From NCBI GenBank assembly GCA_016200205.1, contig JACQFF010000033.1:1-43549 (forward strand): a DNA stretch of 43,549 bases, given 5' to 3'. Shown here piece after piece: positions 1,570 to 24,849 of this stretch (position 1 is the stretch's first letter; every line of letters begins with the position of its first letter). The translations under genes were made by a program, and so were the position numbers. The DNA comes from Planctomycetia bacterium. Its GTDB lineage: Bacteria > Planctomycetota > Planctomycetia > Pirellulales > PALSA-1355. Below the pieces are notes generated by a model. The model did no database searches. It worked only from the letters and a program-made list of their open reading frames with translations, and was not told the origin of the DNA.

Positions 1570-2988
1570 TTATTTCTTGTAATCCCACCCGCGAATGTCG
1601 ACAAAATGCCCGGTGATGGCGGCGGCGGCGGCCATGGCGGGCGAAACCAGGTGGGTGCGTCCGCCTTTGCCTTGCCGGCCTTCGAAGTTGCGATTGCTGG
1701 TCGAAGCGCAGCGCTCGCCCGGTTCCAGTTTGTCGGGGTTCATGGCCAGGCACATGCTGCAGCCGGCCTCGCGCCATTCGAAACCGGCCTCTTTGAAAAT
1801 CCGATCGAGCCCTTCGGCTTCGGCCTGTTTCTTGACCTGGCCGCTGCCCGGCACGACCATCGCGCCGACGCGCTGGGAGACTTTGTAGCCCCGCGCCACG
1901 GCGGCCGCGGCCCGCAAATCCTCGATCCGCGCGTTGGTGCACGAGCCGATGAACACGCGATCCAGGTTGATCTCCAGAATTGGCGCCCCGGGCTTCAGAT
2001 CCATATAGGCCAGCGCGCTGGCGACATTTTTGCGATCGGCCTCGCTCGACTGCTCGGCCGGATTAGGCACGCGGCCCGTGACGGGCGCGACCTGGCCGGG
2101 GTTTGTTCCCCAGGTCACTTGCGGCGACACGTTGGCCGCGTCGAAGACCAGGACTTCGTCGTACTCGGCCCCCCGATCGGTCGGCAATTTGCGCCAGCGG
2201 TCAACGGCGGCCTCGAAATCGCGCGGAACAAATTCGCGGCCGCGCAGGTAATTGAAGGTCGTCTCGTCGGGCGCGATCATTCCCGCCCGGGCTCCGGCTT
2301 CGATCGTCATGTTGCACACCGTCATCCGCTCTTCCATGCTCAAAGCGCGGATGGCGCTGCCGGTGTATTCGATGCAATAGCCGGTGCCGCCGTCGGTCGT
2401 GATCTGGCCGATCAAGTACAGAATCAAATCCTTGGCCGTGACGCCCGGGCCCAGACGCCCCTCGACGCGCAGCTCCATCGTCTTGGGGCGGGACTGCAAG
2501 AGCGTTTGAGTGGCCAACACGTGTTCCACCTCGCTGGTGCCGATGCCGAAGGCCAGGGCGCCGAAAGCGCCGTGGGTGGCCGTGTGGCTATCGCCGCAGA
2601 CGATCGTCATGCCCGGCTGGGTCAGGCCCAGCTCCGGGCCGATGATGTGCACGACGCCCTGCTGCGGATCGTCGAGATCGTACAGCCGGATGCTGAACTG
2701 GCGGCAATTCTCTCGCAACGTGTCGATCTGTTGCTTCGAGATGGGATCGACAATGGGGAGTCGGCGATCGGTGGTCGGAACGTTGTGATCCACCGTGGCC
2801 GTGGCCAACTCTGGCCGGCGAACTTTGCGTCCATTCGTGCGCAGGCCCTCGAAGGCCTGGGCACTGGTGACTTCATGCACCAGGTGGCGGTCGATGTAAA
2901 GGATCGTCTGCTGGCCATCTTCGGCGTGCACGACGTGATCGTCCCAGATTTTGGCGAACATGGTTCGCGCGATCGCTTGAGCAGTCAT
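1570..2988 (-). CDS. leuC: 3-isopropylmalate dehydratase large subunit
   Basis: LeuC, 472 residues, the [4Fe-4S] aconitase-family subunit that with LeuD performs the second step of leucine synthesis. Motifs in order: [11 protein letters not shown] at the N-terminus, [20 protein letters not shown] (residues ~31-50), [20 protein letters not shown] (~127-146), then the cluster ligands in [16 protein letters not shown] (~347-362) and [10 protein letters not shown] (~407-416). All three cluster cysteines expected of the family are present. The start at 2988 places ten residues before FAKIWD, normal for LeuC. A TATAAT box lies 57 nt upstream. It leads an apparent leuC-leuD-TPR run. Confidence 0.97.
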
Positions 2989-3045
2989 TGGCGTAGGTGT
3001 GGCGATTGGAACCGGAGAACCAAATGCAATCTTTCAGAATACTCT

Positions 3046-3051
3046 ATTATA
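3046..3051 (-). promoter_or_regulatory. Possible -10 box of the leuC promoter
   Basis: On the minus strand the sequence reads GGCTATAATAGAG, a perfect TATAAT hexamer 57 nt before the leuC ATG. No convincing -35 hexamer is visible at 16-18 nt spacing, so only the -10 is marked. Confidence 0.35.
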
Positions 3052-3100
3052 GCCCGCGTCCGCCAGCGGGAGGGCCTCGCAACCGCGCTTGCGCTGTTGC

Positions 3101-4780
3101 CTAAATGGCGGCGGCGGCCATGGCTTCGAGGTGTGAATCCTGCACGCCGTTGGCTTGCCACCACCCGGCGGCGTCTTCGTGCGTCCAGCCGCCGGCGGCC
3201 ACGCACTCCGATAGGGCCTGGCGCAACGCAGCGGCACTCTGATAGCGCTCGGCGGGATTTTTGGCCATGCAGCGCAACACAACCTGCTCGATATCGCGCG
3301 GAATATCGGGCCGGAGCCGGGAGGGGGGCACCACCTGTTGATGCGCATGGGCCAGCATGATCTTGATGGCCCGCTCGCCGTCGAACGGCGGAGCGCCGGT
3401 CAACAGGTAATAGGCCACCGCGCCCAACGAATAAATGTCGCTGCGAGCGTCGGGTTCACTATCGCCCAGTGCTTGCTCGGGCGACATGAACAACGGCGAG
3501 CCGGTGATCGAGCCTTCCTGGGTCAGTTGCACCGGCGCGTCGCTTGCGATGGGCTTGGCCAGGCCGAAATCGAGCAGTTTGGCCACGTCGTGAATACCGC
3601 CCCGCTGGGCCGCGAAAATATTGCCCGGCTTGATGTCGCGATGAATGAGTCCCGCGGTATGCGCCTCGGCCAGGGCGTCGCACGACTGAGTGAGCAAATG
3701 AATGGCGCGCGCCGCCGGCAACGGCCCGTGCTTTTCGACCAGATCGGCCAGGCTCAAACCGGGCAAGTACTCCATGACGTAATAGAACGTGCCGTCTTCC
3801 GTGCGGCCGTAATCGAAAATCTCGATCGTGTTCCAATGCGAGAGCTTGGCGGTGGCGCGCACCTCGCGCTCGAAGCGGGCGAGCGCCTGGGGATCGGTCG
3901 CTTTTCCCGGGCGAATCAGCTTGATCGCGCATGGCCGCTTCATCATTTGATGTTCGGCCAAGTAAACGTCGCCCATGCCGCCAGAGCCAATCAACCGGCA
4001 GAGCCGATATTGGCCCAACTGCTTGGCTTCGAAGACCTCGCGCCTCAGGCTGCCGATCATGTGGGTGCCGTAGGTGGTGGACAAGAACGTTACGCCCAGC
4101 ATGATCACGACTTCGACGGCGAACCCTGCCCCGTCACTTGCAACCGATGCAAATACCGGGTCGGTCGTCCACAGATAAACGATCAACAGCAGGGGAGCCG
4201 CGCAAATCATACCGATGATCACAGCGGCCCTGCGCCAGGTGTTGGGAATGAACATTGCGTAGATAAACACAATGCCCATCCAGAATGAGAGCGGGTTGGG
4301 GAGATAGTTTCTCCTGGCAAGAATCTTCAGCAGCGTATAGTCGTAAATCACAAAATACGCGACCGGCAGTCCGAAAATCGCCAGTTCGTATGCGCGCAGC
4401 ACCGAGAGCGGAATGTTGCATCGTCTGCACAGCAACGCGAACGACGAAGCCAACATGACCGTAAGGGCAAAATGGAAGTAGAACGTGAAACTGTCCGAAT
4501 GGCCCGGACCGTCGCCGGTGATCAACCGATAAAGAAAAAACAGTCCAAACGCGAGACCGAGAAAGCCGGCGGCCGCGCGCAGCCGCGTGCGCAACAGGTT
4601 GGTGGTTTCGGCCGTGATCTGGGGCTGACTGCCCTCGATAAATCCCACCCGCTGAAACCGTGCGCACAGCGCGCCGGAAGCGTCACCTGGCGAGGCATCG
4701 ATCGTGGCGAGAGCGGCCGGTATTTGGGATGTTTTTCGCACCACGCGATTTTCCGCTTGCAGGGCCAGGAAAGAAACCAC
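3101..4780 (-). CDS. Membrane-anchored serine/threonine protein kinase
   Basis: A 559-residue Hanks-type (eukaryote-like) kinase. Residues ~68-240 hold about six hydrophobic helices (for example FLGLAFGLFFLYRL, AAVIIGMICAAPLLLIVYLW), so the N-terminal half is a membrane domain. The kinase domain follows at ~258-530: glycine loop IGSGGMGDVYLA (265-276), catalytic Lys in CAIKLIR (K287), Glu in FEREV (E305), HRDIKPGN (380-387), DFG (404-406), and GSPLFMSPEQALG in the activation segment. All catalytic residues are present, so it should be active. This orientation (membrane first, kinase C-terminal) is the reverse of PknB-like proteins with extracellular PASTA domains. The GTG at 4780 is the first start; no clear Shine-Dalgarno is visible, so the true start could be a little downstream. 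The substrate is unknown. Confidence 0.93.
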   Translation of the reverse strand: MVSFLALQAENRVVRKTSQIPAALATIDASPGDASGALCARFQRVGFIEGSQPQITAETTNLLRTRLRAAAGFLGLAFGLFFLYRLITGDGPGHSDSFTFYFHFALTVMLASSFALLCRRCNIPLSVLRAYELAIFGLPVAYFVIYDYTLLKILARRNYLPNPLSFWMGIVFIYAMFIPNTWRRAAVIIGMICAAPLLLIVYLWTTDPVFASVASDGAGFAVEVVIMLGVTFLSTTYGTHMIGSLRREVFEAKQLGQYRLCRLIGSGGMGDVYLAEHQMMKRPCAIKLIRPGKATDPQALARFEREVRATAKLSHWNTIEIFDYGRTEDGTFYYVMEYLPGLSLADLVEKHGPLPAARAIHLLTQSCDALAEAHTAGLIHRDIKPGNIFAAQRGGIHDVAKLLDFGLAKPIASDAPVQLTQEGSITGSPLFMSPEQALGDSEPDARSDIYSLGAVAYYLLTGAPPFDGERAIKIMLAHAHQQVVPPSRLRPDIPRDIEQVVLRCMAKNPAERYQSAAALRQALSECVAAGGWTHEDAAGWWQANGVQDSHLEAMAAAAI

Positions 4781-20821: not shown

Positions 20822-20847
20822 GCGCCCTCCGCTTTCGGCGAATTGGG

Positions 20848-21861
20848 TTAGATAATTTTGTTGCCAAAAAGCTTCTTGTCGAGATCCCCTAACGTGAAAT
20901 GGCTGCGCTCTCTAATGCTCTCTTCCACTAGCTCGATTAGGGATCTGGCCGTCACCATTGCGACGCTGCGTATCGGCGATTGGGAAAGGTATTCGGTCAA
21001 TCGCGTCAGGTCTGACTCCCGGAACGATGGTCCGACAACGACAAAATACAGCTTTTCGAACCCTTGCCGTTGCAATTCTTTACCATGATTCACTGCATAG
21101 TCGAGAAACTTCCGATCCTCTGTACCCAGCACATATCCGTTCGCCCGGACTTTAGCATCGATGATCACCGCGAAACGTTCGCGGGGAGCGACAGCAAGAA
21201 CATCGGCATTTCTGCCAGTACCCTGGCCAAGGGAACGAATTTCGAGCCCGAGACATCGAAATGCGTCAGCAGTCCGTCGCTCGAATAGTGTGCTTGCCGA
21301 CAGATCGCTTGTTTCGAATGGTGCCTGTTCGCCGCGCGCCAACACGTCTAAATATTGAAGGCATGCGGGTAGGAACGGATGAAGTTGCGGAATCGCGCCG
21401 ATGTTTTGCGGCGGAGTCTCACCGATGGGAGGCTTCTTCCCGGGCGTACTCCAGCCATCAAAATCAAGAATCTCGATGAATTCCGGCCGGGAATTCGCCA
21501 GCCAATCGCGAAAGCGATCACGGAAAGTCGCGATAGAACCAAATCGCGTACCAGCGGTGCTAGTTTGCGTTTTGAGTTCTCGCTCCGCTATGCGCAGCTC
21601 ACCCTCCGTCGGAATCTTGCCCAAGTGAAGGCATACTCGCGCATAGTCTTCAAACACACAATCGTCCGAAAGACGCGGAACGAACTCGTTCGGTTTCCCT
21701 CCGGCCTCCTTCACGAGAGCGGAATGCCGAGGCCAATAATACTTGATGTCTGCGGGTCGTAGGCCGGTCGCTTTGCAAAACACCTGCGAACCAGGTGCCC
21801 TGCCAAGCTTTGCCTGGCACGCGCGGTACAAATCGAGGATTTCCTGTTTACTTCGGCGCAT
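20848..21861 (-). CDS. Orphan PD-(D/E)XK nuclease, FokI-like active site, two DNA-binding repeats
   Basis: A 337-residue protein. Residues ~3-60 and ~66-125 look like two helical repeats of the homing-endonuclease-associated kind: LGRAPGSQVFCKATGL, then LGKIPTEGELRIAERE followed by TRFGSIATFRDRFRDWL. After a Pro-rich linker (~138-160) comes a nuclease domain: Glu194 in LFERRTADAF, Asp220 in GRNADVLAV, and Asp235-x-Lys237 in FAVIIDAKVRANGY. The D...DxK pattern and GY after it resemble the FokI cleavage domain. I infer a DNA-cleaving, possibly defensive enzyme; no methyltransferase is nearby. Base composition is visibly more AT-rich than neighbouring genes, a sign of transfer. Convergent with mqnE; no clear Shine-Dalgarno at ATG 21861. 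Confidence 0.75.
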   Translation of the reverse strand: MRRSKQEILDLYRACQAKLGRAPGSQVFCKATGLRPADIKYYWPRHSALVKEAGGKPNEFVPRLSDDCVFEDYARVCLHLGKIPTEGELRIAERELKTQTSTAGTRFGSIATFRDRFRDWLANSRPEFIEILDFDGWSTPGKKPPIGETPPQNIGAIPQLHPFLPACLQYLDVLARGEQAPFETSDLSASTLFERRTADAFRCLGLEIRSLGQGTGRNADVLAVAPRERFAVIIDAKVRANGYVLGTEDRKFLDYAVNHGKELQRQGFEKLYFVVVGPSFRESDLTRLTEYLSQSPIRSVAMVTARSLIELVEESIRERSHFTLGDLDKKLFGNKII

Positions 21862-22067
21862 AGAACCAAATGCGGTGTGGAAAGGATAATTGGAGATGCG
21901 ATCAATTGATTCGGACGACGTCCATTATGGCGCCATTTCAGAGCACCTGGCAACGCAAAATCCTTGCGCGACGACGACCTGCCGAGCCGGCCAGGGCGCG
22001 TCGCGTGCGGTGTCGGTCCGCCCGAGCAGGCGCCGTCGAGGATAGTTTCAACGAAAATCCCGCGGGC

Positions 22068-22532
22068 TCACGGATGCCGGTTGGGATCTTCGACGGATAG
22101 CCCCGCAATGGCCGCCGCAGCATTTAACTCGACGTCGCTAGATACCAAAATCGGCCCATCGAGGCCGGTAGACAGCCGCTGACGGTTCAACTCCAGAATG
22201 GCGGCCAGTTGAACTGCGTCATAGGCTCGCAGGGAGTGTGTCTCGGCCAGCTCGGTTGCTTCGTTGAGGACTGCCCGGGTCACCTCAACAATTTGAAAAT
22301 GGCTTCCAAACTCATTTTGAAATTGTTCAAGCAATCGGGCGGTCCTGTCGCCCGTCAGGCTCCCGCCGCGCCGCCGCCGTGCGATTGCGGCGACCAACTC
22401 AACGCCAGTCAGCCGCGACAGGTAAATGCGGTTGTTCGCTGGCGGATCGAGAAGTTGGTTCACCCATGCCGAGCCGGTTTCGGCAACGTAACGTTTGACG
22501 AGCGAGCTACTGTCGAGAAAGAACGCTGTCAC
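22068..22532 (-). CDS. vapC: PIN-domain toxin (VapC family)
   Basis: A 154-residue PIN-domain ribonuclease, the likely toxin of a type II toxin-antitoxin pair. Acidic active-site residues are all visible: Asp7 in FFLDSSSLVKRY, Glu45 in LTGVELVAAI, Asp105 in LRAYDAVQLAA and Asp133 in VSSDVELNAA. VapC toxins cut tRNA or rRNA at specific sites; the target here is unknown. The GTG start (22532) follows the antitoxin TAA with no gap (TAAGTG), so translation must be coupled. A 206-nt spacer without an evident gene separates it from the downstream nuclease gene. Confidence 0.92.
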   Translation of the reverse strand: MTAFFLDSSSLVKRYVAETGSAWVNQLLDPPANNRIYLSRLTGVELVAAIARRRRGGSLTGDRTARLLEQFQNEFGSHFQIVEVTRAVLNEATELAETHSLRAYDAVQLAAILELNRQRLSTGLDGPILVSSDVELNAAAAIAGLSVEDPNRHP

Positions 22533-22784
22533 TTACCGTCGTTCCCGGAGGATCGTTTGGGACAGTGGTTCGCCTTCGATGACCAGCGGAGTCCAGGGAG
22601 GAAGTTCCTTTTGCTCCGTGCGAGGGGCCAGGACCCCAGCTTCAACCATGGATTGTTCGAACTCGTCCTCCGTAAGCAGACCACCATTGGCGGGCTGAGC
22701 AAGAATCTCTCGAAGTTGTTGCCGCTCCTCGGCACTCAAGGAACGCACTTGACTGACAAGCTTTTCGAACTCAGAAGTTGACAT
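22533..22784 (-). CDS. Antitoxin partner of the PIN toxin (VapB-like)
   Basis: An 83-residue protein upstream of and coupled to vapC. The N-terminal half is a charged helix (EFEKLVSQVRSLSAEERQQL); the C-terminus PPWTPLVIEGEPLSQTILRE follows the pattern of antitoxins that wrap around PIN toxins (a G-x-P-L-S-x-x-I box before a basic end). No clear AbrB or ribbon-helix-helix N-terminus is seen, so the DNA-binding type is open. The open frame starts six codons earlier (22802), but ATG 22784 is more likely. Antitoxin-first order with an immediate toxin start is the normal arrangement for autoregulated pairs. Confidence 0.8.
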   Translation of the reverse strand: MSTSEFEKLVSQVRSLSAEERQQLREILAQPANGGLLTEDEFEQSMVEAGVLAPRTEQKELPPWTPLVIEGEPLSQTILRERR

Positions 22785-22868
22785 GGTTTGAGGATTCCAC
22801 AATGGTCGGGCACGTTAATTATACCTCACTCATCAGGCAGGCGATAGGATTCTGTTCCGTCCCTGCCG

Positions 22869-24242
22869 TCAATCCGCCTTATCGACCACCGGCCGGTGCC
22901 GGGGCAGCATGGCTTTGAAGTCGCCCAGGCTGTGCCAGTACGTTCGCTCGTCGAGGTCGACTTCGGCGATGGCTAACGTGCCCCAATCTTTGGCTTGGGC
23001 GATGATCTGGCCTTCGCGGTCGAGCACGGCGGTAATGGTCCACTTCATGTCCACGTCGGTGTAGGTGCTGCTGACGAGAAAGATGTGGTTTTCACAAGCC
23101 CGGGCTTGGGCCAGCATGGGATTGCAGCCCCACACCGGCCAGGCAATCACTTCGGCTCCGCGATTGCTCAATTCGCGAGCCACCTCGGGAAAGAAACCGT
23201 CGTAGCAGACCATCATCCCGAGTTTGCCGAATCGGGTGTTGAACACTGGGTATTCATGCCCGGGCATGACTCCGTCGGCAATTTCATTGCGCGGCAAGGT
23301 GACTTTGCGGTACTTGCCGATCAGCTTGCCGTCGGGGCCCAGCAGGACCGCCACGTTGTAGATCAAGTGCGCGTCGCGCTCGATCAGACCGGCCACGATA
23401 TAGAGACTGTGTTTCTTGGCCAACGTGCCGAAATACTCGGTCGACGGTCCGGGCATCGGCTCGGCCACTTCGGCGTAGGTTTTCCCCAAGCCATAGAAGG
23501 TCAGCGTTTCGGGCAGCACGACGAGGTCGGCCTTCTTACGGGCGGCTTCCTCGATCAAGGGTGCGAACAGGCGACAATTGCCCTCGGGCGACTTGCCGTT
23601 TCTGGGTTGAAAATGGACGGCGGCCAGGCGCACCTTGCGGCCGGCGGGAGCGGCGCTTGGCGTGAGCAAAATCTCGCTCCACTCCACCTTGCCGCGCGGA
23701 GCCCATTGCAAGTGCAACTCCACGACCGCTTGCGTGGCTTTACTCGGCGCGCGATACACGCCCGAGACCTCAGTCCAACCCGCGGCGTCGGTGGCCCGAT
23801 CGGCCGGATGTTCCGCTTCGGCGATGACCAACCGGCCTTCGAGCAGCTTGGTTTTCAGCGGTTCGTCTTGGGGCACCGGCTGGTCGATCGCATCTTGCCA
23901 GACGATGCGCGCCAGAACGCTGCGACGCGCGAGCGGCACGCTCTCGACCCGGCGGTAGGCCGAAAAGCGATAGTATTGGCCGCCGACGATTGGGAAGGTT
24001 TTGGTCCAGTGCCCCTGCAAACCCTCGCGGTCATCGCATTGGATGACGAGCGCGCCGTGGCCATCGCGTCCGCCCCGACGAATAAGCTCAAACGCGGGCC
24101 GAAGTTCTTCCCGAGGTGATGCCGTCTGCCAGCCTTCGTCCGCAAGAGTTGTAGCGCCGGCGACGCGGGAACAGCCCAGCAGCAGGCAAACGCAGGCCAG
24201 CGCGTACGCTGCGCAATACGACGAAATCTTTCGTTGAAGCAT
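22869..24242 (-). CDS. Lipoprotein carbon-nitrogen hydrolase (nitrilase superfamily) with N-terminal beta domain
   Basis: A 457-residue protein starting with a lipoprotein-type signal ([12 protein letters not shown], lipobox Cys). Residues ~30-185 form a beta-rich region with alternating strands, such as [20 protein letters not shown] and [17 protein letters not shown], reading like a carbohydrate-binding jelly roll. The nitrilase domain follows: Glu in [12 protein letters not shown], Lys in [13 protein letters not shown] and Cys in [19 protein letters not shown], the complete Glu-Lys-Cys triad. These enzymes cut non-peptide C-N bonds (amides, nitriles, carbamoyl groups); substrate unknown. 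The fusion and export suggest a role in periplasmic degradation. ATG 24242 is chosen because it starts the signal peptide; the frame extends 12 codons further. Confidence 0.88.
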
Positions 24243-24345
24243 ACTGCCTAGCGTAAGATCTCGTCTTACCGCAAGCAAGCATTCTCCCCAGTCGCCGAGC
24301 AGGATTCACCGCGCCCAGCTCCGAATGGAATCGTGGGCCGGGCGT

Positions 24346-24624
24346 CTAATACCGGCTGATCATGTAACCGACCAGCACCACCGCCGCCAACACGGCGACG
24401 CCCAAACTTCGGCTGAAGGGCATCACATAAGCGTCGATATCGACGCGTTTATCGAATTGTGTCAGCACCTTGTTACTATCGACCCATTGACCGCCACGAG
24501 TGGCCAGCGACGAGAACCGTCGCGGGCTGAGCAGTGCGAGCAGGCCGACGGCCCCCACAATTCCTAACGCGAACCACGCAAACGAGTCCCGATTCACCGC
24601 AACGGTCGCAAAGAACAATTGCAT
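24346..24624 (-). CDS. Small two-helix membrane protein, unknown function
   Basis: A 92-residue protein not recognised by name. Two hydrophobic helices are clear: FAWFALGIVGAVGLLALLS (~residues 15-33) and LGVAVLAAVVLVGYMIS (~74-90). Between them lies a soluble stretch with GGQWVDSNKVLTQFDKRVDI. The order suggests a hairpin in the inner membrane. It is in the same direction as the nitrilase (104 nt away) and recG. Confidence 0.65.
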   Translation of the reverse strand: MQLFFATVAVNRDSFAWFALGIVGAVGLLALLSPRRFSSLATRGGQWVDSNKVLTQFDKRVDIDAYVMPFSRSLGVAVLAAVVLVGYMISRY

Positions 24625-24806
24625 GTCAACGCTCCTGATTTTAACGCTGTAGCTAGACCTGGTAATGAGCTTTCATTAAAATCTACGTTGCCTCCCGGAC
24701 CAGTCAAAAAACCGCAAGAGCCCCCCCGCAATCAGCCCGTACAATCGTCATTATCCAGCGCACTGGAATAGGCCAGGATATTCAAACTTTAGACGCTACC
24801 TCAAAG

Positions 24807-24838
24807 CCGCCTCGCAGAAGGGAGGCAGTCCCCGGCGG
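24807..24838 (-). terminator. Possible recG 3'-end structure
   Basis: On the minus strand after recG, GCCTC and GAGGC (24826-24822 and 24813-24809) form a 5-bp stem. An overlapping alternative pairs CCGCC (24838-24834) with GGCGG (24811-24807), followed by CTTTGA. Short stems and a poor T-run make this a weak terminator candidate. Confidence 0.3.
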
Positions 24839-24849
24839 TTTTGGGCGTC

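Follow-up and report, generated by a model that had tools for sequence, protein, structure and literature searches.

The window analyzed here, 43,549 nucleotides of contig JACQFF010000033.1 from a planctomycete, carries a gene for a predicted nuclease and poses the question of how a host could live with a site-directed nuclease when no methyltransferase shields its DNA. An initial interpretation, the sequence-only reading, had proposed an orphan enzyme that could be a stand-alone nuclease, a defense effector or a remnant of a restriction system. The list of open reading frames and the translation show an intact frame of 337 amino acids (Table 1), with a GC content of 53.8% (GC3 of 55.6%) against 60.6% for the whole window. 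None of 851 equal-length stretches of the window reaches a GC content as low, in agreement with the proposal that the gene is more AT-rich than its flanks. A pseudogene was also considered and dismissed, since the reading frame is uninterrupted and homologs of ~340 amino acids retain the active site. Taken together, the data presented below favor, with a probability of roughly 0.55, a gene for a stand-alone, dimerizing, site-directed DNA endonuclease that travels as mobile cargo and most likely serves as a restriction-like defense gene.

Table 1. Coordinates of the nuclease gene, its parts and its surroundings in the window.
Feature	Position	Strand	Description
Whole nuclease gene	20848..21861	-	337 aa, ATG start; two helical DNA-binding-type repeats and a FokI-type PD-(D/E)XK domain
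N-terminal repeat 1	21691..21846	-	residues ~6-57; helix, G-x-x-P turn, HTH-like
N-terminal repeat 2	21463..21666	-	residues ~66-133; Pfam HNH_repeat match at 66-109
FokI-type cleavage domain	20851..21411	-	residues ~151-337; E194, D220, D235, K237
Helix positions R250-Y255	21097..21114	-	aligned with FokI D483-Y488; three alignments agree
VapBC-like pair	22068..22802	-	PIN-domain toxin 22068-22532 (Pfam PIN E 9.6e-8) and 89-aa upstream partner
Islet, 4 kb	20822..24849	.	between mqnE-like and recG genes; synteny with L118, L119 and L120

The C-terminal half was expected to be a FokI-like nuclease domain. The window protein itself gives no match to Pfam FokI_cleav_dom (PF09254) at E < 1, and its FokI-type identity rests therefore on homologs and structure. 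A profile built from 25 family sequences finds FokI as its top match in the PDB (E 7.5e-8), and its hhalign comparison with the FokI segment yields a probability of 96.5 and an E of 8.3e-10; nothing relevant in the PDB was matched by phmmer with the single nuclease sequence. PF09254 is matched by 9/16 family members at E up to 0.1, the homolog L002 reaching E 2.5e-10 and 40.6 bits, against a curated cut-off of 25. In addition, the AlphaFold2 model of the window nuclease (mean pLDDT of 83) matches FokI in Foldseek with an E of 1.1e-6, and VIA-align superimposes residues 151-337 of the model on FokI with a Z of 18.4 over 170 residues at 2.5 Å, followed with lower scores by the BspD6I subunits (Z 14-16) and HindIII (Z 9.5). 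The best fold match is thus a nuclease and not a non-nuclease fold, and by profile, Pfam on the homologs and structure, residues 151-337 form a cleavage domain of the FokI type, as had been anticipated.

The residues E194, D220, D235 and K237 sit where the sequence-only reading had placed them and align in the profile alignments with E425, D450, D467 and K469 of FokI, whose numbering was checked by counting along the PDB alignment (D467 falls in place). All four are invariant in 25 of 25 divergent homologs, a conservation that is partly built in because the homolog loci were gathered with patterns containing D220 or D235-K237; E194 belongs to neither pattern. Moreover, the D/E-x-K is kept in 34 of the 35 loci caught by the first pattern alone, the exception being a truncated contig, and the D220 position is kept in all loci caught by the second pattern alone. 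The nuclease assignment therefore withstands the comparison of D220, D235 and K237 across homologs.

In FokI, D483 and R487 form intermolecular salt bridges of the dimer, and charge swaps at these positions are employed in engineered nucleases. Three alignments place FokI D483, R487 and Y488 over R250, D254 and Y255 of the window nuclease. Among the 25 homologs, R250 and Y255 are kept without exception (25/25 each), and position 254 is occupied by E or D in 25/25. Hence, the D483/R487 pair appears to be charge-swapped to R250 and D/E254 in this family, which, judging from the aligned residues, may have a self-consistent dimer interface of reversed polarity.

Regarding the N-terminal part, two repeats like those associated with homing endonucleases had been suggested, and the profile comparisons bear this out. 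The profiles of the two repeats match one another (hhalign E 2.8e-6), and residues 66-109 match Pfam HNH_repeat (PF18780) with an E of 4e-4 and 21.1 bits, under the 26-bit cut-off. The related protein L006 scores 27.1 bits to PF18780, and matches at E up to 0.1 were obtained for 8 of the 16 family members, the lowest being 1.3e-5. In the AlphaFold2 model, repeat 1 is composed of helices 5-19, 25-32, 36-40 and 46-52, and repeat 2 of helices 66-80, 86-96, 103-107, 110-122 and 126-133. Structural matches of the repeats to HTH-like folds are weak, non-specific and not diagnostic.

The N-terminal module has its own distribution. Planctomycete proteins such as L004 and L006 have it in common with the window nuclease, with up to 37% identity (L004, E 3.6e-15), but carry, in place of the FokI-type domain, T5orf172/MUG113 domains according to Pfam, which are of the GIY-YIG type. 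Against the N-terminal parts of the second FokI clade, the best E is 3.7e-8. The window N-terminus is thus closer to the T5orf172-type proteins than to this other FokI clade, which suggests that nuclease domains have been exchanged on a common DNA-binding module. Also, three proteins of the window clade (L021, L022 and L024) have the module at 44-58% identity, yet the N-terminus of L023 differs although its C-terminal domain belongs to the same clade as that of the window nuclease. Since the module is common to the first three and to the T5orf172 proteins while the N-terminus of L023 is different, the sequence comparisons make it appear that domains have been exchanged in both directions. The phylum search split the nuclease, some homologs corresponding to the C-terminal half alone and others to the N-terminal half alone. 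The L023 protein (L023:476-1618), from a Pirellulales genome, has an apparently HTH-type N-terminus without a Pfam match.

The absence of a methyltransferase or integrase partner had been claimed as well, and it holds among the best 25 of the 47 families found for the 28 other open reading frames of the window. A motif scan, which is crude and covers flanks whose lengths vary among loci, detected a methyltransferase-sized protein with an N6/N4 or m5C motif near 0 of 16 loci grouped with the window architecture (L023 included), and there is no DNA methyltransferase among the listed neighbor families of these loci. The sole motif match was a 168-amino-acid protein in L028/L029 with a stray SPPF/NPPF near its N-terminus. 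These results, together with the FokI-type domain and the repeats, support the stand-alone nuclease that the sequence-only reading had considered. In the sister architecture, the same crude scan found a methyltransferase-sized candidate in 17 of 38 loci, and Pfam confirmed N6_Mtase, HsdM_N or Methylase_S in several of them, often type I hsdM/hsdS. This second, commoner architecture (L031:3749-8576, L038, L043, L050, L064, L066 and others) consists of proteins of ~450 amino acids that have the C-terminal FokI-type domain in common with the window nuclease and differ in their N-terminal domain of ~230 residues and in their neighbors, often type I hsdM and hsdS and occasionally also an OLD-like ATPase or hsdR. 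It may represent a type I-like system whose nuclease is of the FokI type. In L031, the ~230-residue domain lacks a Pfam match and shows the motifs WGF..GQMFFN, FLSYFWQ, WPVYYT and VEHVFW.

The nuclease gene is rare and scattered across phyla, in varying neighborhoods. When 84,980 species genomes were scanned with the profile, 57 loci in many phyla were recovered, and the closest homolog belongs to a Nitrospirota MAG (75% across the domain); in the tree, the window clade mixes Planctomycetota, Nitrospirota and Acidobacteriota. A survey of the Pedobacter phylum (296 genomes) gave one other genome with a match. The single protein searched against phages and against genome contigs, and the family profile searched against viral contigs, returned no matches. 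Even close relatives occupy different places: L057/L058 (86% identical) and L037/L039 (81%) sit at sites without common flanking DNA, and only L028/L029 have common flanks, matching over ~1 kb. In the Mucilaginibacter locus L039 (7354-8717), the nuclease gene is the only one between two genes that adjoin each other in five congeners. In L022, from a Bryobacteraceae MAG, a direct repeat of ~230 bases (627-855 and 2976-3308; pieces 90-97% identical, spacing of ~2.35 kb) flanks a TumE-like gene and the nuclease gene, an arrangement that suggests that a gene fragment was duplicated upon insertion. The neighbors of the window-type loci include integrases, mobilization-type and toxin-antitoxin-like genes, a DUF4411 protein, HTH/M78 genes, a TIR protein, a TumE-like toxin and protein kinases with defense-model matches, and many others are housekeeping genes.

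In the window, the nuclease gene lies in an islet that also contains the VapBC-like pair and a nitrilase-type gene and that three same-family relatives lack, among them L118 from the same genus. In the same-family L119 and L120, the mqnE-like and recG genes adjoin, their stops being 3 bases apart in L119. Around the window nuclease gene itself, the flanking repeats amount to one 12-mer. The VapBC-like pair had been described as following the nuclease gene; it is indeed nearby, but it lies on the 5' side on the minus strand and so precedes it. Pair and nuclease belong to the same islet, their association being positional, and the PADLOC matches of both are marginal. L118 has a different cargo gene between the mqnE-like and recG genes, and this junction is a variable spot.

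Based on these features, the two N-terminal helical repeats would recognize a site in the DNA, close to which the C-terminal domain would cut, probably dimerizing transiently, with D220, D235 and K237 acting in catalysis with Mg2+. In the host, the site might be scarce or blocked, or recognition might be limited to modified or foreign DNA, in which case a dedicated methyltransferase would be unneeded. In the absence of a linked methyltransferase, the host would have to escape cleavage because such sites are scarce or blocked, because only modified DNA is cut or because the enzyme is regulated. The gene would spread by being carried on islets and mobile elements, and its most likely role would be that of a restriction-like defense gene. 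A narrower form of this explanation, a modification-dependent (type IV) enzyme whose repeats recognize a modified base, draws on the stand-alone organization: for winged-helix fusion nucleases, the lack of an adjacent methyltransferase was taken as a hint of stand-alone, possibly type IV enzymes (PMC11037411), and the same argument can be made here. However, no pocket for modified bases is known in the repeats and their HTH-like matches are those weak, non-specific ones, and this form seems somewhat doubtful to us.

A different possibility is a homing-type selfish endonuclease that cuts the empty site and is copied in during repair, the FokI-type domain replacing HNH or GIY-YIG. It would fit with repeats of a homing-endonuclease-associated family, with the single-gene insertion of L039 and with the TumE-like and nuclease genes enclosed by the direct repeat of L022. 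Nonetheless, the close pairs L057/L058 and L037/L039 lack common flanking DNA, unlike what allelic homing into a conserved target would leave, for which reason allelic homing was downgraded; the window insert is a 4-kb multi-gene islet, and no intron or intein was seen. Homing is thus unlikely, and the differing insertion sites of close relatives together with the multi-gene insert favor defense over it. Even less expected is a restriction subunit of a type IIS or type I-like restriction-modification system whose methyltransferase has disappeared or is encoded at another genomic location. FokI belongs to type IIS and the sister architecture is often found beside hsdM/hsdS, but the absence of a methyltransferase candidate from all 16 window-architecture loci, in several phyla, makes this quite improbable. 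The FokI structural match, moreover, is limited to residues 151-337, so that the N-terminal part of ~150 amino acids lies outside the aligned range and shows no apparent match to the FokI recognition part. The nuclease is consequently not filed as a type IIS restriction-modification enzyme, a linked methyltransferase having been looked for and not found. The proposed remnant of a restriction system finds no support either, given an intact stand-alone family of ~340 amino acids across several phyla.

A comparison of the preferred stand-alone endonuclease with known systems shows that its parts are already known, the new elements being their combination, the stand-alone state and the apparently reversed dimer pair. 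The window nuclease shares with FokI the fold, the order of elements and the catalytic E, D and D-x-K, and probably works like it by analogy, whereas its N-terminal DNA-binding part is another one, no methyltransferase is adjacent, R250/D254 appear to stand for D483/R487, and a GQGxGR loop precedes the first catalytic D. Nt.BspD6I and R.BspD6I2, the large and small subunits of a nickase, have the same FokI-type fold but their own recognition part, and belong to a heterodimeric restriction-modification enzyme. No description of a FokI domain on HNH_repeat-type repeats was found in the literature searched, in which subscription journals are thinly represented. We tentatively consider, as a possibility short of even odds, a methyltransferase-free nuclease class in which an HTH-repeat module would be joined to a GIY-YIG-type or a FokI-type cutter, the latter with reversed dimer polarity, as natural analogues of engineered modular nucleases acting in stand-alone defense or as selfish genes. 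The FokI cutting domain underlies zinc-finger nucleases and TALENs. If the preferred reading is true, the family would be a natural source of small, possibly FokI-orthogonal nuclease domains on a compact two-repeat module, their dimer interface being apparently charge-swapped, and the module common to GIY-YIG-type proteins would directly evidence nuclease exchange on one DNA reader.

Finally, two further observations deserve mention. In L039, GGTG/CACC palindromic repeats lie 3' of the nuclease gene and also elsewhere in the locus. On a plasmid of the haloarchaeon Halalkalicoccus (L015:4844-12130), a protein of 187 amino acids corresponds to the C-terminal FokI-type half alone, and its neighbors, an AAA protein, a DUF262/HNH protein and a restriction endonuclease, give the region the look of a defense island.
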